Positions 49,264 through 59,256 of a stretch of DNA of 64,000 bases are shown here, in pieces (the first letter of the stretch is position 1; every line of letters starts with the position of its first letter). The DNA is from Myxacorys almedinensis A (lineage in GTDB: Bacteria; Cyanobacteriota; Cyanobacteriia; Leptolyngbyales; Leptolyngbyaceae). A model generated the notes under the pieces. The model was not told where the DNA came from, did not search any database, and saw only the letters and a list, made by a program, of their open reading frames with translations. Made by a program: the position numbers and the translations under genes. Location: positions 1 to 64,000 of the forward strand of contig NZ_WVIE01000018.1 in the NCBI RefSeq assembly GCF_010091945.1, in the 5' to 3' direction.

Positions 49264-49337
49264 GTCAATTACAATCCCATTGGTTTGTCCCCCGCTCTAC
49301 CCCTGCTTCAGTCCTTCTTCCCCGGAGCTTCTTGCCC

Positions 49338-52268
49338 ATGAATATGTCCGAACGTCCTCATTCCCTCATCTACACAGACTGGACGGTGATCGAGCCGCAT
49401 TTTGACCCCACACTTTTGCACGCTAGAGAAACGGTTTTCACCATTGGCAATGGCTATTTGGGCACGCGCGGCAGTTTTGAGGAAGGTCACCCGCAAGCGA
49501 TGGCTGCCACGTTGATTCATGGGGTGTATGATCACGTTCCGGTAGTGTATACCGAGTTGGTCAACTGCCCCGATTGGTTACCCCTGGTGATCACGATCGA
49601 GGGCGATCGCTTCCGCCTTGATCAAGGAGAGGTGTTGAGCTACGAACGCAGCCTTGATTTACAGCACGGGCGGTTGAGCCGTTCGGTGCGCTGGCGTAGC
49701 CCTGCCGGAAAAACCATCGACCTACACTTTGAGCGGTTTGCGAGTTTTGCCGACCAGCATGTGTTGGCGTTGCGCTGCCAGATCACCCCGGTCGATTTTG
49801 AGGGATCGATCGAGGTGCAGGCAAGCATCAATGGCTATCCTGAAAATCAAGGGTTTAATCATTGGGAGTCGATTGGTCAGGGTGCGACTCGGCATGGAGT
49901 TTGGCTGCGCGTCCGCACTCGTACGTCTCGGATCGAACTGGCGATGGCATCGGGCATGAATTTATCTGGTGCGGAAGGCTCTCCCCAAACGGCAAATGTT
50001 CCAGGATACCCAACGCTACTGACATCGTTTTTTGCATCACCCGATCAAACGGTTACGATTGAGAATGTGATTACGGTCTACACGTCTCGTGATGTGGAAG
50101 CACCAACGCAAGCGGCTCAAACTAAGTTAGCAGATCTGCCCAGTTATGCAGACTTGCGATCGCAGCACGAAGATGCCTGGAAACAAGCCTGGGAAAACAG
50201 TGATATTTTGATCGAAGGCGATGTTAAGTCTCAGCTTGCCGTTCGCTACAATATCTTTCAACTGTTGATCAGCGCTGCAAAGCACGATGATCAGGTCAGC
50301 ATTCCTGCAAAAACCCTATCCGGATTTGGCTATCGCGGACATGTTTTTTGGGATACCGAAATTTTTATTTTGCCTTTTTTCACCTACACTCAGCCTGCTC
50401 TGGCACGAAATCTCCTGACTTACCGCTATCACACCCTAGAGGGTGCGCGGCGCAAGGCGGCTCACTATGGGTTTAAGGGCGCAATGTATTCGTGGGAGAG
50501 CGCCGATACGGGCGATGAAGTCACCCCGCGCTGGGCACTGCCAAACGATCCTTACGCCGAAGATATTCGGATTTGGTGCCGCGATCGCGAAATTCATATC
50601 AGTGCTGACATTGCCTACGCCGCCTGGAACTATTGGCAAGCAACGGGCGACGATGACTGGATGCGCGATTATGGAGCAGAGATTATTCTAGACACGGCTG
50701 TGTTTTGGATGAGCCGTGTCGAGTGGAGCAACCGCCACGAACGCTACGAGATTCGCGAGGTGATTGGCGCAGATGAGTACCATGAACACGACGTAAATAA
50801 CAGCGTGTTTACCAATCGTTTAGCTCAATGGCATTTAGAAAAAGCGATCGCGGTTTACGATTGGTTAAAACAACACCACCCACAACGCTTAAGCGATCTG
50901 GAGAAGAAACTCAAAATCACCCCCGAACGGCGATCGCGATGGCAAGATATTGCCAAAAACCTCTGGATTCTCGACAGTCCATCAGGGTTGATCGAGCAGT
51001 TTGAAGGATTCTTCGATCTCAAAGACATTAACCTCAACGATTACGAGCCTCGCACCAAATCCATTCAAGCCCTGATCGGCATTGAAGAAGGCAACCGTCG
51101 CCAAGTGCTGAAACAGCCCGATGTGCTGATGCTGCTGTATCTGATGCGTCAATCTCAGGAGTTTCCCTACAGCCCAGCCGCTGTCGAGAAAAATTGGGAC
51201 TACTATGCACCGCGCACCGACATCACCTACGGGTCTTCGTTGGGTCCTGCCATTCACTCGATTCTTGCGTCAGACTTGGGGAAATCGGTCGAAGCTTACG
51301 ATCGCTTTATGCAAGCCGCGCTTGTGGATTTAGAAGACACCCGTGGCAACGCATCAGAAGGCATCCACGGCGCATCGGCAGGGGGAATTTGGCAGGTTGT
51401 CGTTTTTGGCTTTGGCGGTATTCAACTTGGCGATCGCCATCCCGTCGCCAACCCCCATCTTCCCCCTGGGTGGAGTCGTCTCAAATTCCGCTTGCACTGG
51501 CGCGGCAAATGGCACGACTTTGACCTCAAACCCAACCCAACCCAACACCTCCCAGCCCCTATGACTCCTCCTCCCCCCTCCTCGCCTCGCCTCCCCATTC
51601 GCGGCGTGATCTTTGATCTCGATGGCGTTCTCACCGATACGGCAGAATACCACTACCGCTCTTGGCAACGCCTCGCCGACGAAGAAGAGCTTCCGTTTGA
51701 TCGAGACGCTAACGAAGCGCTGCGCGGGGTGTCTCGCCGCGAGTCGCTGATGCTGATTGTGGGCGATCGCACCTATTCTGAAGCCCAGCTACACGAGATG
51801 ATGGAGCGCAAAAACGGCTACTATGTGGAACTGATTCAAACCGTTTCCCCCCATGATTTGCTGCCAGGGGCGCTGACGCTATTAGAAGAGTTGAGACAGG
51901 CGGGCATTAAAACCGCGATCGGGTCTGCCAGCAAAAATGCTCGCCCTGTGGTTGAGAAATTGGGGATCGCGGATCAGGTCGATGCGATCGCAGATGGCTA
52001 CAGTGTCGAGCATCCAAAGCCTGCTCCTGATCTTTTCCTGTTTGCCGCCCAAGAACTTGGGCTTGACCCTGGCGAATGTGTGGTGTTTGAGGACGCCGCC
52101 GCCGGGGTAGAAGCGGCTCTAGCGGCGGGTATGTGGGCAGTGGGGCTAGGTCCGGAAGAACGAGTTGGGGCAGCGCATGTTGTCTTGCCCAGTTTGGCTG
52201 ACATGCACTGGAGTGCTGTGCAAGAAAGGGTGCAGCAAGCTTCTCATCAAGAGTGTGCCAATTCATAA
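49338..52268 (+). CDS. GH65 disaccharide phosphorylase fused to beta-phosphoglucomutase
   Basis: This protein of about 976 residues starts at ATG 49338 (CGGAG upstream). Residues ~1-735 are a GH65 inverting phosphorylase of the trehalose/maltose/kojibiose group: FTIGNGYLGTRGSFEE, FWDTEIFILPFFTYTQP, the catalytic acid near E479 in IGADEYHEHDVNN, and the phosphate-site DITYGSSLGPAIHS. A proline-rich linker (TPPPPSSPRLP) leads to a HAD beta-phosphoglucomutase: GVIFDLDGVLTDTAEYHYRSW (nucleophile Asp ~760), GVSRRESLM, IGSASKNARPVVEKLG, EDAAAGVEAALAAG. The fusion would convert an alpha-glucoside to beta-glucose-1-phosphate and then glucose-6-phosphate in one chain. The disaccharide is not identifiable from sequence. 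Confidence 0.92.
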   Translation: MNMSERPHSLIYTDWTVIEPHFDPTLLHARETVFTIGNGYLGTRGSFEEGHPQAMAATLIHGVYDHVPVVYTELVNCPDWLPLVITIEGDRFRLDQGEVLSYERSLDLQHGRLSRSVRWRSPAGKTIDLHFERFASFADQHVLALRCQITPVDFEGSIEVQASINGYPENQGFNHWESIGQGATRHGVWLRVRTRTSRIELAMASGMNLSGAEGSPQTANVPGYPTLLTSFFASPDQTVTIENVITVYTSRDVEAPTQAAQTKLADLPSYADLRSQHEDAWKQAWENSDILIEGDVKSQLAVRYNIFQLLISAAKHDDQVSIPAKTLSGFGYRGHVFWDTEIFILPFFTYTQPALARNLLTYRYHTLEGARRKAAHYGFKGAMYSWESADTGDEVTPRWALPNDPYAEDIRIWCRDREIHISADIAYAAWNYWQATGDDDWMRDYGAEIILDTAVFWMSRVEWSNRHERYEIREVIGADEYHEHDVNNSVFTNRLAQWHLEKAIAVYDWLKQHHPQRLSDLEKKLKITPERRSRWQDIAKNLWILDSPSGLIEQFEGFFDLKDINLNDYEPRTKSIQALIGIEEGNRRQVLKQPDVLMLLYLMRQSQEFPYSPAAVEKNWDYYAPRTDITYGSSLGPAIHSILASDLGKSVEAYDRFMQAALVDLEDTRGNASEGIHGASAGGIWQVVVFGFGGIQLGDRHPVANPHLPPGWSRLKFRLHWRGKWHDFDLKPNPTQHLPAPMTPPPPSSPRLPIRGVIFDLDGVLTDTAEYHYRSWQRLADEEELPFDRDANEALRGVSRRESLMLIVGDRTYSEAQLHEMMERKNGYYVELIQTVSPHDLLPGALTLLEELRQAGIKTAIGSASKNARPVVEKLGIADQVDAIADGYSVEHPKPAPDLFLFAAQELGLDPGECVVFEDAAAGVEAALAAGMWAVGLGPEERVGAAHVVLPSLADMHWSAVQERVQQASHQECANS

Positions 52269-52343: not shown

Positions 52344-54047
52344 TCAAGAGGGGGGTTCTCTCAGAAGGCGAGCGATCCAGTGGCTGGCGATCGGCATTCT
52401 CCACCCTGTGCCAAAGGCGCGATCGGTGACTTTCAACCCCGGCGGAGATTGTTTGCGCTTAAATTCAGCAATTCTGACTAACGTTGCTACTCGTTCAACC
52501 ACGTCGGCATCGTGTCCGGCTTGCACAATCTGCGCGATCGCATGGTGGTGATGAATCAATCGATCCAAAATATCGTCTAACACGTCGTAAGATGGCAAAG
52601 AATCTTGATCTTTCTGTCCGGGTCGCAGTTCGGCACTGGGCGCTTTGGTGAGCACGTTGGGCGGAATGGGAGCTTGGTCTTGCTGATTGAGCCATTCACA
52701 GATAGCGTAGACCTTGGTTTTGGGAACGTCTGCGATCGCGGCGAGTCCGCCATTCATATCGCCGTATAAGGTGCAATAGCCGACTGCCACTTCTGACTTG
52801 TTGCCTGTCGAGACCAACAGATGACCAAATTTGTTGGAGATTGCCATTAGCAAGGTGCCGCGAATGCGAGACTGAAGATTTTCTTCCGCTAAACCCACGG
52901 GGGTTTCGGCAAACAGGATGTCTAAGCTGCTGTCATAGCATTCCATCAAGGTTCCAATGGGAAGCGTTTGAGTTGGGATACCAAGGTTTTGCGCCAAGGC
53001 GATCGCATCGTCAATGGAATGATCCGAACTGTAGGGCGACGGCATGAGAACGCCTAGAACCTGTTCTGCGCCCACTGCTGCCGCCGCGATCGCGGCGACC
53101 AACGATGAATCAATTCCACCGCTCAAGCCCAACACGATTTTAGAAAAACCGCACTTTCGCACATAATCACGAACACCCAGAACCAAAGCGGCGTAAAGTT
53201 CTGCGGCTTCAGTCTCAACACAGGGCGCGATCGTACCGGGTAAAAAATCGTGAGTGTGGATATCATATTCAACCACCAGCCAATCGGCTTCAAACCCACG
53301 GGCACGGGCGAGAAGATGCCCAGCGCGATCGCAGACAATGCTGCGTCCATCAAAAATTAAATCATCATTGCCACCCACTTGATTGGCGTAAATCATCGGT
53401 TGATGAAACCGTTTCGCCCCGTGTTGCAGCAACCGTTCTCTCAAGCGTTGTTTACCCACTGTAAATGGTGATGCAGAAAGATTCACTGTAAAATCAACGC
53501 CAGCATTAGCAAGATCGGCAAGGGGATTGAGATCGTAAGTTCGTTTTCCCCAAAATTCCTCATCGTTCCACAAATCTTCGCAAATGGTAACGCCAATGCG
53601 AACGGTAGAAGAATTCCAATCGAGCACGAAATGGTTTGGTTGCTCGCCCGACGCAAAATATCGGTGTTCATCAAACACATCGTAGGTTGGCAGCAAGCGC
53701 TTGTGAAAAACTTGGCGAATCTGCCCGTTCTCAAGTAGAGCCACGCTATTGAATAGCGGTTTTTCGCCCTTTTGGTGCGATCGCGCATTCACTTCAACCG
53801 TTCCAACCAAGACCGCTAACCCCGCAGGAATCGCCTGTGCCAATTTCAGCAGCGTTGTTGCCATCATTTGCACAAAGCTCGGATCGAGCAACAGATCGCG
53901 AGGCGGATAGCCACAGAGCGACAGTTCGGGGGTGAGCAGCAGGCGGATGCCCTCGTCAGCCGCCCGATCAGCCGCCGCCAGAATTTTTTGGGCGTTGCCA
54001 TCGAGATCTCCGATCGTCGGATTGAGTTGTGCGATCGCAATGTTCAT
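52344..54047 (-). CDS. nadE: glutamine-dependent NAD synthetase
   Basis: NadE amidates nicotinate adenine dinucleotide to NAD using ATP and glutamine. The N-terminal carbon-nitrogen hydrolase domain (~1-260) starts MNIAIAQLNPTIGDLDGN with catalytic-type Glu (LLTPELSLCGYPPRDLL), Lys (VFHKRLLPTYDVF) and Cys (VGVTICEDLWNDEE, here IGVTICEDLW). The C-terminal synthetase domain has VLGLSGGIDSSLVAAIAAAAVG and STGNKSEVAVGYCTLYGDMNGG. I chose the second ATG (54047) because AAGGA sits 5 bases before it; the first ATG (54050) is inside the hepT stop overlap. It is the last gene of the NAD operon and is translationally coupled to hepT. Confidence 0.95.
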   Translation of the reverse strand: MNIAIAQLNPTIGDLDGNAQKILAAADRAADEGIRLLLTPELSLCGYPPRDLLLDPSFVQMMATTLLKLAQAIPAGLAVLVGTVEVNARSHQKGEKPLFNSVALLENGQIRQVFHKRLLPTYDVFDEHRYFASGEQPNHFVLDWNSSTVRIGVTICEDLWNDEEFWGKRTYDLNPLADLANAGVDFTVNLSASPFTVGKQRLRERLLQHGAKRFHQPMIYANQVGGNDDLIFDGRSIVCDRAGHLLARARGFEADWLVVEYDIHTHDFLPGTIAPCVETEAAELYAALVLGVRDYVRKCGFSKIVLGLSGGIDSSLVAAIAAAAVGAEQVLGVLMPSPYSSDHSIDDAIALAQNLGIPTQTLPIGTLMECYDSSLDILFAETPVGLAEENLQSRIRGTLLMAISNKFGHLLVSTGNKSEVAVGYCTLYGDMNGGLAAIADVPKTKVYAICEWLNQQDQAPIPPNVLTKAPSAELRPGQKDQDSLPSYDVLDDILDRLIHHHHAIAQIVQAGHDADVVERVATLVRIAEFKRKQSPPGLKVTDRAFGTGWRMPIASHWIARLLREPPS

Positions 54048-54391
54048 CATGATCCTTGGTTTAATTCCTGAAAAATGGCGGTTACTCTAAGCTTCAAATC
54101 AGGTAGATCTGCCTCTACAATTGCCCAAACAACTTCTACATTAATTCGGAAATATTCATGAACTAAAACGTTTCGTAAACCAACGATTTCTACCCAAGGC
54201 AAATCAGGATATTGAGCCTTAAACTCTACTGATAGTGCTCTAGCCGCTTCTCCAATAACTTGAAGATGGTACACAACCCAAGTTTGAATCAGTTCATCTT
54301 GTTCAAAGACTTGTTTCCCTTGCGCTGCATATTGCTCGATCCGACCGATCGCTTCCGAAATATCTAGCCGTCTTTCGCTGTCATTTCTCAT
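54047..54391 (-). CDS. hepT: HEPN-domain toxin HepT (DUF86)
   Basis: HepT-type HEPN toxins are small RNases inactivated by AMPylation of a tyrosine by their MNT partner. The 114-residue protein has the Rx4HxY motif as RNVLVHEYF near residue 75, plus LIQTWVVYHLQVIGEAARALS, which is typical of DUF86. It starts within the stop of the MNT gene (ATGA at 54388-54391). Its own stop overlaps the ATGs of nadE (ATGATG at 54045-54050). All residues of the RNase and target-tyrosine motif are intact, so an active toxin is likely. Confidence 0.92.
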   Translation of the reverse strand: MRNDSERRLDISEAIGRIEQYAAQGKQVFEQDELIQTWVVYHLQVIGEAARALSVEFKAQYPDLPWVEIVGLRNVLVHEYFRINVEVVWAIVEADLPDLKLRVTAIFQELNQGS

Positions 54392-54678
54392 AGAGAGACT
54401 GCCTCTTTTAAAACCCGTTCTCGGATTCGATCTTTCAATCCTCCATCTGTTGCAACATCCACTTTACGTCCTAGCAAATCTTCTAAATCTAGAATTAGCC
54501 CGACCGGGAACCAAGAACTGCGATTTTCACCCATCTCGACTAGAAAATCGATATCGCTATCGGCTCGTGCTTCGCCTCGTGCCACGGAACCAAATACTCG
54601 CACGTTGTAGGCTCCGTGTTGGGCTGCAATCGCTAATATTTCTTCTCGTTTATCGGCTAATAATTCGTCGATTCCCAT
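54388..54678 (-). CDS. mntA: MNT-domain nucleotidyltransferase antitoxin MntA
   Basis: MntA-type minimal nucleotidyltransferases transfer AMP groups from ATP to the tyrosine of HepT, switching it off. The 96-residue protein shows VFGSVARGEARADSDIDFLVEMG (the GSxxRG-x-SDxD signature) and a third acidic position in GRKVDVATDGGL. GGAG lies 8 bases before the ATG at 54678. It overlaps hepT by four bases. It lies 47 bp downstream of the NrtR-like regulator, and an inverted repeat (54700-54715) sits in that gap. Confidence 0.92.
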   Translation of the reverse strand: MGIDELLADKREEILAIAAQHGAYNVRVFGSVARGEARADSDIDFLVEMGENRSSWFPVGLILDLEDLLGRKVDVATDGGLKDRIRERVLKEAVSL

Positions 54679-54699
54679 GGTGGTTTCTCCGTGAGAGAG

Positions 54700-54715
54700 A
54701 CACGCTGTATCGTGT
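54700..54715. promoter_or_regulatory. inverted repeat upstream of mntA
   Basis: ACACG and CGTGT flank a 6-base centre (54700-54715), 22 bp before the mntA ATG and 10 bp after the regulator stop. It could be an operator for toxin-antitoxin autoregulation or a small RNA hairpin between cistrons. The arms are short. Confidence 0.4.
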
Positions 54716-54725
54716 TTCTACCTGT

Positions 54726-55469
54726 TTATATGAATACCAACGGTTTGTCTTTGAATGGGGCAAACGCTTCGGCGTCAAATCGGTACAAACTGGCAGGACG
54801 ACCTGCACCCCGCGACACTTTCACTTTCGTATCCGCTAAAAAACCCAATTTTAAAAGGCGCGATCGAAAGTTAGAATAATCTGAAAAATTTTCGCCCAAA
54901 ACCGTGGTGTAAAGCTGATACAAATCGCTCAGCGTAAAGACTTCAGGCAACACATCAAACGCGACCGGACTATACTCCAATTTGTTTTTTAATCGACCAT
55001 GCCCGTATTCCAAAATTTTGTTGTGATCAAACGCTAATTGCGGCAACTGATCCAAGGGATACCAAGCAATTCCACTCACGCCATCAGCAATCAGTTCGGC
55101 ATCGGCAAATCGTACCAGCGCAAAATAACTGACTGAGAGGTAGCGCACCCCATAGCTATCTTCTGCCTCTCGCGGATCGCGATCGGGGCCTCCAAACGTG
55201 TACAGTTGCTCTAGATAAAGATTGCGGACTCGAATCTTCTCCGCCAAAATTCGGTAAGATGCATCTTCCAACGATTCCCCCTGACGCACCAGCGTAGCAG
55301 GCAGGCTCCACTGACCCAAAAACGGCTCTTCTTGGCGCATCACCAGCAGCACCAGCAGGCGATTTTGAGCCGTATCTACGGAAAAGATCGCGTTATCAAC
55401 GCCGACTCTAAAATCTGCAAGGCTCTCTCCTGCTAATGGACTGGCTGTTTTTTTATAGGTACGTCGCAT
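54726..55469 (-). CDS. nrtR: NrtR-like NUDIX transcriptional regulator of NAD metabolism
   Basis: NrtR regulators combine a NUDIX-like sensor of ADP-ribose or related metabolites with a winged helix. The 247-residue protein starts MRRTYKKTASPLAGESLADF at 55469. The NUDIX region reads QWSLPATLVRQGESLEDASY followed by RILAEKIRV, where catalytic NUDIX boxes have RELxEExG; loss of the glutamates suggests sensing without hydrolysis, as in many NrtR proteins. The C-terminal ~70 residues (FTLSDLYQLYTTVLGENFS ... FRSRLLKLGFL ... GAGRPASLYRF) match the NrtR winged helix. It overlaps nadD by 37 bp and lies within the NAD operon, as regulators of this type do. Confidence 0.88.
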   Translation of the reverse strand: MRRTYKKTASPLAGESLADFRVGVDNAIFSVDTAQNRLLVLLVMRQEEPFLGQWSLPATLVRQGESLEDASYRILAEKIRVRNLYLEQLYTFGGPDRDPREAEDSYGVRYLSVSYFALVRFADAELIADGVSGIAWYPLDQLPQLAFDHNKILEYGHGRLKNKLEYSPVAFDVLPEVFTLSDLYQLYTTVLGENFSDYSNFRSRLLKLGFLADTKVKVSRGAGRPASLYRFDAEAFAPFKDKPLVFI

Positions 55470-56029
55470 CCGTAAAGTTGCTCCCGATCGATATATGCTT
55501 GAATCGCGTGGGTGACTCCGGTTAGATCTTCCTGCGTGCGGTATGCTGTTGAGGATACTTCCGGAACGGCAATCTCTGCGATCGCAACGGTTGCCCCCAT
55601 CTGCCGCAAGCGCTCTACATCGGCGGCGTCTAGAGAATAACCCGATCGCGGCACAATCAACACGTTGACATGCTGCAACAGTTCCTCGACATGAAACCAT
55701 TTCGGCAATTGCCGTGCCACGTCAAACCCCACGATCAGCGTAAATTCTGCACCTTGCCAGCGCTGTTTCGCCCGTTCCACGGTCACCACCGTTCGAGCAT
55801 GGCTCAATTCTGGATACACCCAAACATTATGCTTGGGACAGTGCAAATCTTGAATCAGCAGCCGCAGCATTTGAGTGCGATGCTCAAGGGGGGTTTGATC
55901 AGCTTTGAATGGGTTATCGGCAGCCCACACTGCAATTTCGTCAAACTGCGGGGAGAGCGATCGCAAAATCTCTAAATGTCCGATCGTGGGAGGATCAGCA
56001 CTGGTGCCAAAAAGCGCAATCGTCAGCAT
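55433..56029 (-). CDS. nadD: nicotinate-nucleotide adenylyltransferase
   Basis: NadD adenylylates nicotinate mononucleotide to nicotinate adenine dinucleotide, the substrate of NadE. The 198-residue protein starts MLTIALFGTSADPPTIGHLE at 56029, with the nucleotidyltransferase (T/H)xGH motif as TIGH. EIAVWAADNPFKADQTPLEHR, FTLIVGFDVARQLPKWF and VSSTAYR (ISSTxxR-type) complete the fold. An upstream extension to 56092 is possible but not family-like. It follows pncB by about 70 bp and overlaps nrtR. Confidence 0.94.
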   Translation of the reverse strand: MLTIALFGTSADPPTIGHLEILRSLSPQFDEIAVWAADNPFKADQTPLEHRTQMLRLLIQDLHCPKHNVWVYPELSHARTVVTVERAKQRWQGAEFTLIVGFDVARQLPKWFHVEELLQHVNVLIVPRSGYSLDAADVERLRQMGATVAIAEIAVPEVSSTAYRTQEDLTGVTHAIQAYIDREQLYGCDVPIKKQPVH

Positions 56030-56098
56030 AGTTTGGATAACACTGGAAGGATTGTCAATCACTACTCTGACAGTAGCGCATTCCATCGTCAAACCGTT

Positions 56099-57448
56099 CT
56101 AGCGCGACCGATGGCGCGTCTGCTCGGTAAGCTCAAAAAGTGCAGATGACAGTTCAACAGAAACGGGCTGAGCCGCCTCAAACTGACGAGCCGCGATCGG
56201 CAAACTCTGCACAGACCGAGCCGTGCGCTGGGCAATTTCGCTCAGGCTTTCTGGCTTCGCTAGTGGCTGTCCTTGCTTACAGACAAGCTGTAAAAGCGGC
56301 ATCTCCAACCGCGAAGATTCGGAAATAAGACCCAACCGATCTTGGGCAATCACTCCACTTTCAAACCGCCGAAACACTTGCTTCCGCCCCGGATAGGTGA
56401 CTTTTCCAGGGGACTCTTTCATCACCGGAATGCCATCAATTTCGACCAATTTATAAACACCGTTCACTGGAGACCCCGATACTAGCTGCGTGCCCACCCC
56501 ATACCCATCGATACAGGCCCCCGCCGCTCTCAACTCTAAAATCTTATATTCATCCAAGTCGCCGCTGGCAAAAATTGCAATCCCAGGCAACAGGTCTCGG
56601 ACTTGCCGAGACAGAGAAACCAGATCCCCCGAATCAATGCGGACACCGGCTAAGGTTCCGGTACCATCGCTCAGGTGGGAGGACAGTTCACGCGCCGCTG
56701 CGATCGTATCGTACGTATCGATCAGCAACGGTGCACCCGGAAAGTAGCGATGAAATGCGGTAAACGCTTGGGCTTCTGTCCCTTCAGTGGCGCTCAATGC
56801 CATCACTAGCGCATGCGCCATCGTTCCGGTTGGCTGGCGATCGAGCTTTAAGGCTGCCAGCACATTGGAGGTTGCATCTAGCCCTGCCGCTAGCGCCGAT
56901 CGCGCTGCCCAAAGTGAGGCTTGGGGGCTAAAGGCGCGGCGCGTCCCAAACTCTAGCAAGGTGGCTTCATCTCCCGCCGCATCGCGCATTCGAGCCGCAC
57001 GAGTGGCAACCAAGGTCTGATAGTTGATGGTATTGAGAAGGTAGGTCTCAACCAGTTGCGCTTGCCATAAGGGAGCCTCAATTCTCAAAATCGGCTCATT
57101 GGGAAAGACAGCGGTTCCTTCTGGCACGGCCCACACATCCCCCGTAAATCGCCCATTTTGCAGCAGTGCCCAAAAGTTTTGGGGGGCATGATCAAAGATT
57201 CCACTCGTTTTCAGCGATTCAATTTGGGCAGGGCTAAACGTTAGCTTCTTTAAATAGTCCAATGCTTGAGCCAGTCCCATCGCGATCAGGTAGCCAAAGC
57301 CTGGGGGCAGCCGCCGCACCGTAAGCTCGAAACTTGCTTGACGCTGATCCAAGCCTTCTCCTACATAGCAAGCTGCCATTGTAAGCTGATACAAATCGGT
57401 CAGAAGGCTATAGTCTTCTGGGGTTATTGTCAGTTCGGTGTCTTCCAC
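56099..57448 (-). CDS. pncB: nicotinate phosphoribosyltransferase
   Basis: PncB makes nicotinate mononucleotide from nicotinic acid and PRPP with ATP, the entry to NAD salvage. The 449-residue protein starts at a GTG (57446-57448) with AGGAG upstream (EDTELTITPEDYSLLTDLYQ). Family motifs are LTDLYQLTMAACY, LEFGTRRAFSPQASLWAARSAL, AGLDATSNVLAA, TGTMAHALVMAL, LLIDTYDTIAAAR, GVRIDSGDLVSLSRQVRDLL and FASGDLDEYKI. It is the first gene of the operon; two candidate operators lie upstream. Confidence 0.95.
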   Translation of the reverse strand: MEDTELTITPEDYSLLTDLYQLTMAACYVGEGLDQRQASFELTVRRLPPGFGYLIAMGLAQALDYLKKLTFSPAQIESLKTSGIFDHAPQNFWALLQNGRFTGDVWAVPEGTAVFPNEPILRIEAPLWQAQLVETYLLNTINYQTLVATRAARMRDAAGDEATLLEFGTRRAFSPQASLWAARSALAAGLDATSNVLAALKLDRQPTGTMAHALVMALSATEGTEAQAFTAFHRYFPGAPLLIDTYDTIAAARELSSHLSDGTGTLAGVRIDSGDLVSLSRQVRDLLPGIAIFASGDLDEYKILELRAAGACIDGYGVGTQLVSGSPVNGVYKLVEIDGIPVMKESPGKVTYPGRKQVFRRFESGVIAQDRLGLISESSRLEMPLLQLVCKQGQPLAKPESLSEIAQRTARSVQSLPIAARQFEAAQPVSVELSSALFELTEQTRHRSR

Positions 57449-57531: not shown

Positions 57532-57554
57532 ATTATAGTTATTTTAACCAAAAG
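57532..57554 (-). promoter_or_regulatory. candidate operator/promoter site 1 upstream of pncB
   Basis: The + strand core TATAGTTATTTTAACCAAA (from 57534) contains the near-palindrome GTTA-TTT-TAAC. On the minus strand it supplies TATAAT as a -10 box, with TTGACT 15 bases upstream as a -35 box. A near-identical sequence recurs at 57649-57671. I infer an NrtR operator overlapping the pncB promoter. Confidence 0.5.
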
Positions 57555-57648
57555 TCAAGAGCCTAAAATCCTGCGATAGGTCGATTTTTGGCGCGAAAAT
57601 TGCACAAAACCCCTAATAACGCCTAAAAATAACGGTTTATGCTAAATA

Positions 57649-57735: not shown

Positions 57736-59256
57736 TTACTGCTCTGCAATACTCCCAGCGTGAAATCCTGTCACAAATGCGATCGCATCCTCTTGAGTCG
57801 GCAACTGAAACGGCGAAGGCTCATGCAGAAACGCCAGATCCTGTTCAGAGGCAGATCGCTGAATGCGCCGCCTGCCAAAATGCGGATTCTCATACACAGT
57901 CAGCATTTGGTTATTTGAATTCATCAACACCGTTCGTGTTGGAGACTGAAAAAACGGAACGCTCCGAATCGCGATCGGAATCGATTGTAGTTGTTTAATT
58001 GCGTTGACCTGCTGAACGTGCTGGCTCAAATTCGTGACAAGCTGCTGAAATTGCTGAAGCCGTCTCAGATCAGACCGAAACACCTGAGATGGAATCGACT
58101 GAATCACCTTCAAAACAGTGTGCGCCGTCGCCTTGGCATCCTCAAACGGAAAAATAGCCACGTAGGCAGCCAGAAAAAGTTGCACATCACTCTCTAACTC
58201 AAACGTCAAAACCGTGCGGCGGCGATAAACCTCAACACTGGGTGCAGGCACAAACTGACCACAATACCGCACAACCTGCTGATAGGTCACCGCCAACGCG
58301 CAATTCGCATCTGCCCCCAAGCGATCATCAATGATCACCTGCACCGTAGGTGGCTTTTCATTAAAATATTCCTGCGGATTCTCGGTTTGAAATTGGTACA
58401 CCTTACTTTGATCTCCATTCTGGCTCAAGTCAATCCAGCGACACACCGCACCCTCAGTTTTCACCCCAAACGGCGAAACCCCATGTAACTTAACGCCCGT
58501 CAGGGTAGACCCACTCAGATCCGCACCCATCCAATCGACCCCAGCAAGGTTAGCGCGAGTCAGATCGACATGCACCAACGTCGCTTCTAATAATGTGGCA
58601 TGGCTCAGATCGGCTCCGGTCAAATTTGCCCCGCTAAATTTTGCACTGCTCAAATCTGCCCATCGCAAATCGGCACCGCTCAGGTCTGCCCACCGCAAAT
58701 TTGCCCCCGATAAATTTGCCCCTTGCAGATTAGCCCGGCTAAGATTGACCTGTCGCAGTTCAGCCGCTCTCAAGTCTGCCCCTGACAAATCCGCTCCGGT
58801 CAGGTCGCTGCTAGACAGGTTTGCTCCTGTTAGATCTGCACACGTCAACTTCGCATGACGCAGAACGCTACGACTAAGATTTGCCTGAGATAAAACCGCG
58901 TGCCGCAGCGTGGCATCCTTTAAATCAGCACTGCCCAAGTTGGCGCTTCGTAACTGTGCGCCGTTTAGCTCTGCGCGCGTCAGATCAGCACTGCTCAAAT
59001 TAGCATCGCTCAAGATGACGCCGCTCAGATCAGCCAACGTCAGATCGGCTCCACTAAAATTGACGCGATCGCACACCGCTCGGCTTAGATTTGCATTGGT
59101 CAGCTTTGCCAAACTGAAGTTAACTCTAGTAAATTTAGCTTGGCTAAAATTGACACCCGTCAAAACGGCTCCGGTCAGCTTGGTGTCACTGAGGGTGCTC
59201 CCAGAAAACTCTCTCTCGCCTGCTGCGTATTTTTCTAGAATATCCTCAGCCTTCAT
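57736..59256 (-). CDS. pentapeptide-repeat protein with C-terminal globular domain
   Basis: This 506-residue protein has a short leader (KAEDILEKYAAGEREFSGSTL) and then about 45 A(D/N)LXX repeats to residue ~270 (for example ADLSGADLRAAELRQVNL), forming a right-handed beta-helix. The C-terminal ~230 residues are non-repetitive: VQVIIDDRLGADANCALAVTYQQV, VEVYRRRTVLTFELESDVQLFL and a Gln-rich helix (RLQQFQQLVTNLSQHVQQVNAI). I do not recognise this domain. It lies upstream of pncB on the same strand, 287 bp away, and diverges from tyrA. Confidence 0.9.
   Translation of the reverse strand: MKAEDILEKYAAGEREFSGSTLSDTKLTGAVLTGVNFSQAKFTRVNFSLAKLTNANLSRAVCDRVNFSGADLTLADLSGVILSDANLSSADLTRAELNGAQLRSANLGSADLKDATLRHAVLSQANLSRSVLRHAKLTCADLTGANLSSSDLTGADLSGADLRAAELRQVNLSRANLQGANLSGANLRWADLSGADLRWADLSSAKFSGANLTGADLSHATLLEATLVHVDLTRANLAGVDWMGADLSGSTLTGVKLHGVSPFGVKTEGAVCRWIDLSQNGDQSKVYQFQTENPQEYFNEKPPTVQVIIDDRLGADANCALAVTYQQVVRYCGQFVPAPSVEVYRRRTVLTFELESDVQLFLAAYVAIFPFEDAKATAHTVLKVIQSIPSQVFRSDLRRLQQFQQLVTNLSQHVQQVNAIKQLQSIPIAIRSVPFFQSPTRTVLMNSNNQMLTVYENPHFGRRRIQRSASEQDLAFLHEPSPFQLPTQEDAIAFVTGFHAGSIAEQ

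Follow-up and report, generated by a model that had tools for sequence, protein, structure and literature searches.

A class I MntA-HepT toxin-antitoxin pair inside the NAD operon of Myxacorys almedinensis A: mosaic structure and recurrence at the nrtR-nadE junction

Results

Gene content of the operon and identity of the pair

We analysed a window of 64,000 nucleotides from the cyanobacterium Myxacorys almedinensis A (assembly GCF_010091945.1, contig NZ_WVIE01000018.1, positions 1 to 64,000), in which an operon for nicotinamide adenine dinucleotide (NAD) biosynthesis carries a HEPN/MNT toxin-antitoxin pair, mntA-hepT, between its regulator gene nrtR and the NAD synthetase gene nadE. The open reading frames (ORFs) of the window and a domain scan gave the minus-strand order pncB, nadD, nrtR, mntA, hepT, nadE, in agreement with the order, strand and coordinates of an earlier sequence-only reading of this DNA. 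The genes are:

56099..57448, minus strand: pncB, nicotinate phosphoribosyltransferase (NAPRTase_N, 1e-32)
55433..56029, minus strand: nadD, nucleotidyltransferase (CTP_transf_like, 2e-11)
54726..55469, minus strand: nrtR, Nudix-related transcriptional regulator (NUDIX 7e-13, NrtR_WHD 6e-20, AraR_C 2e-49)
54388..54678, minus strand: mntA, antitoxin, a minimal nucleotidyltransferase (PF01909); mosaic, with a congener-like 5' half and a 3' half from another lineage
54047..54391, minus strand: hepT, predicted HEPN ribonuclease toxin (DUF86/PF01934) with an intact RX4HXY motif
52344..54050, minus strand: nadE, NAD synthetase of the glutamine-dependent type (NAD_synthase plus CN_hydrolase), starting at 54050 or 54047

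The nadD start was taken as the ATG at 56029 read from the sequence (the ORF listing has a TTG at 56092). NrtR, combining Nudix and winged-helix domains, lies in one unit with pncB, nadD and nadE, as in NrtR-regulated NAD operons, and pncB-nadD-nrtR-nadE was the commonest order among the loci examined. A NadE query found a single match in this genome and a HepT query five; HepT matches occurred in 210 of 291 genomes.

Both proteins of the pair retain the motifs that, according to the accessible text of PMC7641770, define class I HEPN/MNT pairs, namely RX4HXY in the toxin and GSX10DXD in the antitoxin: HepT has RNVLVHEY, MntA has GSVARGEARADSDID, and the intact motifs claimed from the sequence alone were thus confirmed in both. 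The PF01934 toxin gene adjoins the PF01909 antitoxin gene with the antitoxin first, as in class I HEPN/MNT (type VII) systems, and HepT showed a weak similarity (E 6.5e-06) to the solved HepN toxin chain 5yep. The overlaps that had been claimed are also real: mntA and hepT share ATGA, and the hepT stop codon TGA (54049-54047) sits within ATGATG at the start of nadE. Judged by these sequence features, the two genes form a true class I MntA-HepT pair that sits within the NrtR/NAD operon and overlaps it.

The cassette is a mosaic

We designate the genome of the window G000 and its congener (the same genus code) G001. Comparison of the two at the DNA level gave 88% identity in nrtR, 76% in the 46-base-pair (bp) spacer and 91% over the opening 154 bp of mntA. 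Identity fell to 54% over positions 54524-54115 and recovered to 94% across the final 33 bp of hepT; the opening 293 bp of nadE stood at 79%. The proteins behave alike, the N-terminal half of MntA being 98% identical, its C-terminal half 54% and HepT 43%. The divergent segment is:

54115..54524, minus strand: exchanged block, comprising the 3' half of mntA and most of hepT (54% identity to the congener; triplet test)

In the triplet G000/G001/G263, 123 of 158 informative sites inside the block were like G263 and 35 like G001, while outside it 185 of 248 were like G001 and 63 like G263, a split unmatched in 10,000 shuffles. Four other triplets also reached the smallest attainable p, though the triplets have sequences in common and the test assumes that sites are exchangeable; in the two with G210 the transferred stretch was short and lay mostly in mntA. 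The inner block of the cassette comes from another lineage. The window's HepT ends in ELNQGS, the same tail as that of G001; since the HepT tails of G263 and G287 differ from this, the whole end of hepT was evidently replaced in those two.

By the C-terminal half of MntA together with HepT, the cassettes fall into type A (G000, G263, G287), type B (G001, G006, G021 and the first pair of G197) and type C (G210, G249 and the second pair of G197), and types A and B were both found in genus g1 and in genus g6. G197 (L072) thus has two tandem mntA-hepT pairs of different types, and the sequence between them, TCATGATGAAAAAG, resembles a former nadE start that continues as the second mntA, which apparently begins at that former start codon. 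Mosaics of the kind seen here may arise by import through recombination or by collapse of a tandem array at either end, as both would give such a structure.

Turnover of types and phylogeny

A quick tree of PncB, NadD, NrtR and the N-terminal part of NadE, representing operon genes rather than genomes and built without G287, grouped loci of unlike type as nearest relatives. G000 (type A) stood beside G001 (type B) and G263 (type A) beside G021 (type B), each with support 100, and G006 (type B) stood beside G210 (type C) with support 93. At least four changes of cassette type are required among nine closely related genomes; this count lets G197 be either B or C and treats G270, which matches G006 at 27 of 33 residues, as a B in decay.

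A joint MntA and HepT tree was built from 61 rows (79 minus 21 from other subfamilies, several of them long-branched, plus 3), the non-slot rows being picked mainly by similarity to the window's HepT and so not a random sample; it is an approximation because MntA is itself mosaic. It contained two lineages (support 99/98), with 14 slot rows in one and three (the window, G263 and G287) in the other. A single clade of all 17 slot rows was rejected (p-AU 7e-6), and with it their single origin; the 14 rows of lineage I as one clade were not rejected (p-AU 0.245).

Distribution at the nrtR-nadE slot

The locus was compared across cyanobacteria, as the sequence-only reading had proposed, and the pair proved recurrent in the family and sporadic in one other. 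Within the family 42 genomes were searched, 40 had nadE, and 38 including the window were assessable, G016 being left out where the contig starts inside nadE and G007 where it ends at nadE. The pair or its remains lay upstream of nadE in 13 of the 38. Eleven were intact (the window, G001, G006, G021, G197 with its two pairs, G210, G249, G287, G012, G018 and G298) and two were damaged, hepT being truncated in G263 and both genes decayed in G270. On the other side nrtR was visible in 12 of these 13, the contig of G287 beginning just before mntA. In the two closest genera the slot was occupied in all ten genomes, eight intact and two damaged.

A further locus, G008, has a 26-codon frame that matches the start of mntA (score 57, against a maximum of 34 in 30 shuffles) and overlaps nadE by ATGA; its score against hepT, 32, was not above shuffles. 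On this evidence it is a probable deletion scar of the pair. The remaining family loci comprise eight that have an NYN/OST-HTH gene but lack the pair (in G236, one of these, the stretch has no nrtR), 13 without an insert, and three without a recognised nrtR or insert gene.

Outside the family the pair or remains occurred in 4 of 82 stretches (G105 intact; G084, G114 and G180 damaged), and HepT searches added two further intact slot pairs, G252 and G290; all six belong to one other family, f24. An insertion confined to this strain, one of the outcomes that the sequence-only reading had named as counting against it, is itself contradicted by the pairs or remains at the slot in 13 of 38 family genomes and six f24 genomes. 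Among 80 named loci, five had the pair or remains (Myxacorys californica WJT36-NPBG1, Leptolyngbya sp. Prado105, LEGE 13415, FACHB-63 and FACHB-471), and these are cases already in the coded-genome counts; the other 75, mostly Nostocales, showed no pair, a few of the stretches stopping at nadE. In two cases only, L103 (G180) and L073 (G263), the toxin gene was missing or truncated beside an intact antitoxin gene, which is what loss of the toxin before the antitoxin would leave.

Selection on the cassette

Ratios of nonsynonymous to synonymous substitution rates (dN/dS) were obtained for cassettes of the same type within a genus (G018/G298, G210/G249, G006/G021, G006/G197 and G249/G197) and ranged from 0.067 to 0.087 for mntA and from 0.038 to 0.115 for hepT. 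In the same genome pairs the part of nadE that encodes the N-terminus gave 0.050-0.067 and nrtR 0.018-0.036. Values between genera were near saturation, and the G000/G263 value for hepT was 0.22, the G263 gene being truncated. Same-type cassettes are under purifying selection and, given these low ratios, appear functional. Cassette dS was near that of nadE in G006/G021 and G006/G197 and lower in G018/G298, while for hepT it was lower than nadE in G210/G249 and higher in G249/G197; inheritance between exchanges looks largely vertical, if not uniformly so.

Transcription and translation of nadE

Two candidate signals bear on the expression of the operon:

57532..57558, minus strand: operon promoter candidate, TTGACT-15-TATAAT, a conserved pattern with a presumed promoter role
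54053..54057, minus strand: AAGGA, putative ribosome-binding-like sequence for nadE within the 3' end of hepT

Of 30 loci compared, 22 carried the pattern GGTT-(3-9)-ACTATAAT upstream of pncB, and it was absent from all 50 shuffled sets. The window's copy lies within TTGACT-15-TATAAT, whose 15-nucleotide spacer falls outside the limits of our general promoter scan, and no NrtR site was identified there. Between nrtR and nadE we found no minus-strand promoter-like or terminator-like site; this absence is weak evidence, since over the whole stretch the scans yield about as many sites as shuffled sequence does. A 9-pair hairpin between nrtR and mntA (54696-54719) was considered and set aside: judged by eye, the congener keeps only part of it, and the other genus, whose spacers are shorter, lacks it.

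The nadE start is more likely at 54047 (a 1-nucleotide overlap) than at 54050 (4 nucleotides), because the NadE proteins of relatives align from the second ATG. An RNA structure hiding this start, which would enforce coupling to hepT, was sought and not found, the hepT-nadE junction being no more structured than shuffles (z +0.97). With AAGGA before nadE and an unstructured junction, nadE need not depend on translation of hepT; as far as the sequence goes, translational coupling is possible and would not be obligatory.

Pairs in other operons and other genes at the slot

The pair is not specific to NAD operons. In the same genome, locus L005 (G000:C6:51617-54850) has mntA-hepT between ureD and ureA, with ureA starting about 2 bp after hepT. 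In L039 (G014) the pair and the gene downstream of it, assigned by domain scan to the DevR/Csa2 CRISPR family, overlap by 1 nucleotide, and L045 (G193) looks similar by eye with an overlap of 4 nucleotides; both have a similar upstream frame of at least 392 residues, and both pairs are probably inside a type I-D cas operon. The gene upstream of the G014 pair had no Pfam match, and we take it to be csc3-like; preceding other pairs are what we assume to be pieces of hsdS/hsdM, recJ and ileS. Among the 28 non-slot pairs with wide flanks, a subset of 64, nine had a co-directional downstream ORF (at least 100 residues, starting no more than 100 bp from the hepT stop; ORFs called mechanically, one pair having no downstream room), 12 had a co-directional ORF ending near mntA, and seven had both.

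Other genes also occupy the slot. A gene with NYN and OST-HTH/LOTUS domains, a putative ribonuclease, lies directly upstream of nadE at loci that include L079, L084, L089, L091, L094, L096-L101, L110, L120, L129, L148 and L160, in four cases after mntA-hepT; in G012, G018 and G298 it stands between hepT and nadE. The same position holds a 23S rRNA-intervening-sequence protein in L111, a DUF4238 protein in L096, a NucS-like gene in L098 and a DNA methylase in L135. Judged by eye, L100 has a NucS-like gene as well, L168 a DNA methylase and L107 an ATP-binding-cassette protein.

In NadE itself, the proteins of G003, G019, G256, G275 and G297 gave matches broken near residues 146-149 and 457-460 within one frame of 620-649 residues, breaks that we read as lineage-specific in-frame insertions. 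Immediately upstream of the operon the window encodes a pentapeptide-repeat protein (57736-59256, minus strand), and on the other side a single plus-strand frame (49332-52268) joins glycosyl hydrolase family 65 domains to a C-terminal HAD hydrolase, an apparent fusion.

Discussion

On balance we favour the reading that mntA-hepT is an operon-embedded class I HEPN/MNT (type VII) addiction cassette in a recurrent nrtR-nadE slot of a NAD operon conserved in cyanobacteria, with a likely specificity module that is swapped as a block. The cassette, having no recognisable promoter of its own, would most likely be transcribed from the pncB promoter, and antitoxin, toxin and NadE would then be made in that order from one message through overlapping genes. 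By analogy with studied pairs, MntA would add adenosine monophosphate (AMP) to the tyrosine of RX4HXY and so silence the HepT ribonuclease, which, if it behaves like its family, would become active when MntA or adenosine triphosphate (ATP) is short. Loss of mntA alone should be toxic, and many deletions would hit nadE, so the pair may be kept as an addiction module. The C-terminal half of MntA and HepT would form the likely specificity module, replaced as one block while the catalytic half of MntA and the nadE start stay; a block that couples the C-terminal half to its own HepT would keep the partners matched. This fits the suggestion, in the part of PMC11586414 accessible to us, that the long C-terminal helix of MNT controls its cognate HEPN.

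Several observations weigh against an addiction cassette. The pair is missing from 25 of the 38 family loci, two of the 13 occupied slots are damaged (G270 and G263) and G008 resembles a scar, so the pair can evidently be lost or was never there. The ribosome-binding-like site of nadE and its unstructured junction also speak against it; block exchange is indistinguishable here from collapse of an ancestral tandem array; and, with the 14 lineage-I rows acceptable as one clade, one old insertion followed by losses may explain much of the distribution.

The sequence-only reading had proposed a functional link to the NAD or adenylate state. As a sensor, the pair would share the ATP pool with NadD and NadE, low ATP or NAD would free HepT and thereby slow growth or cut the operon message, and NrtR and HepT together would form an NAD-homeostasis circuit. 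Its position and overlaps in the NAD operon and the purifying selection on the cassette agree with this, as does the Legionella HEPN, whose AMPylation, in the accessible text of PMC11586414, depends on ATP concentration, low ATP favouring active HEPN. We nevertheless regard such a sensor as very improbable and found the link unsupported: the 25 family loci without the pair are joined by 78 of 82 outside the family, the same pair type lies in this genome's urease operon and, by eye, in CRISPR and restriction-modification operons, some relatives have lost the toxin or the pair and kept nadE, and the ATP available to MntA would be the same wherever its gene lay.

A drifting mobile pair in a tolerant intergenic site, its repeats at the slot reflecting the abundance of such pairs alone, would suit the HepT matches in most genomes, the other genes in the slot, the decayed copies and the probable scar. 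We think this unlikely in view of dN/dS values of 0.04-0.12 for same-type cassettes within a genus, against 0.05-0.07 for the NadE N-terminal part, and of the occupied slot in every genome of the two closest genera. Somewhat better placed, if still doubtful, is a polymorphic defence or anti-addiction locus at which selection by phages, or by plasmids with cognate toxins, turns over types in the manner of variable specificity genes. The repeated type changes in nine relatives, the exchange of the MntA C-terminal half with HepT while the catalytic half is kept, and the presence of types A and B in both g1 and g6 speak for it, but collapse of tandem arrays by drift would give the same pattern and the sample holds one genome per species. 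Only tentatively, and with slightly more confidence than in the defence locus, we suggest a polymorphic toxin-antitoxin locus at the nrtR-nadE junction. Its old types, each an MntA C-terminal half with the HepT that belongs to it, would be kept across genera and block-swapped under diversifying or balancing selection into a fixed frame, bounded on one side by the common catalytic half of MntA and on the other by the start of nadE.

The SO_3166/SO_3165 HepT/MntA pair of Shewanella oneidensis shares with the present one PF01934/PF01909, RX4HXY, GSX10DXD and an upstream MNT gene (PMC7641770, accessible text); the present pair differs in lying inside a metabolic operon. The HEPN-MNT pair of Aphanizomenon flos-aquae (Songailiene 2020) is the same kind of cyanobacterial pair according to text that cites it (PMC11586414). 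The accessible text of PMC2701414 describes an MNT-HEPN pair of Thermus thermophilus HB8 in a lysine biosynthesis operon, absent in HB27, likewise a biosynthetic setting; there it is a two-strain difference, whereas here several genera have a pair at the slot, the cassettes turn over and the pair overlaps nadE. The Synechocystis hox hydrogenase operon with toxin-antitoxin genes (PMC4963859, in part) is also a cyanobacterial case in a metabolic operon, though a different one. NrtR-regulated NAD operons share nrtR beside pncB, nadD and nadE; in the cyanobacteria examined, most of them lack a toxin gene. Our literature search, which most subscription journals lie outside, turned up neither an account of the pair next to nadE nor one of block exchange at a single site, and "nadE" is absent from the main text of PMC3710099, PMC2701414 and PMC4963859. 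The description of the arrangement as unusual is partly true: a pair of this kind in a biosynthetic operon is in print in the Thermus case, but the literature searched did not show one with nadE. What is new here is the mosaic, with the MntA C-terminal half and most of HepT belonging to another lineage than their surroundings, and the repeated changes of type.

Close relatives differ at this one site in an essential operon: the pair may be intact, doubled in tandem, mosaic, without a working toxin gene or probably deleted, and the slot therefore offers a natural setting in which to study the spread and persistence of such toxins. Addiction and operon-locking can be tested there directly, and so can the question of which part of MntA sets toxin specificity, the natural junctions pointing to its C-terminal half. 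If the junction is indeed polymorphic in this sense, an essential operon would be the docking site at which toxin specificities are exchanged.

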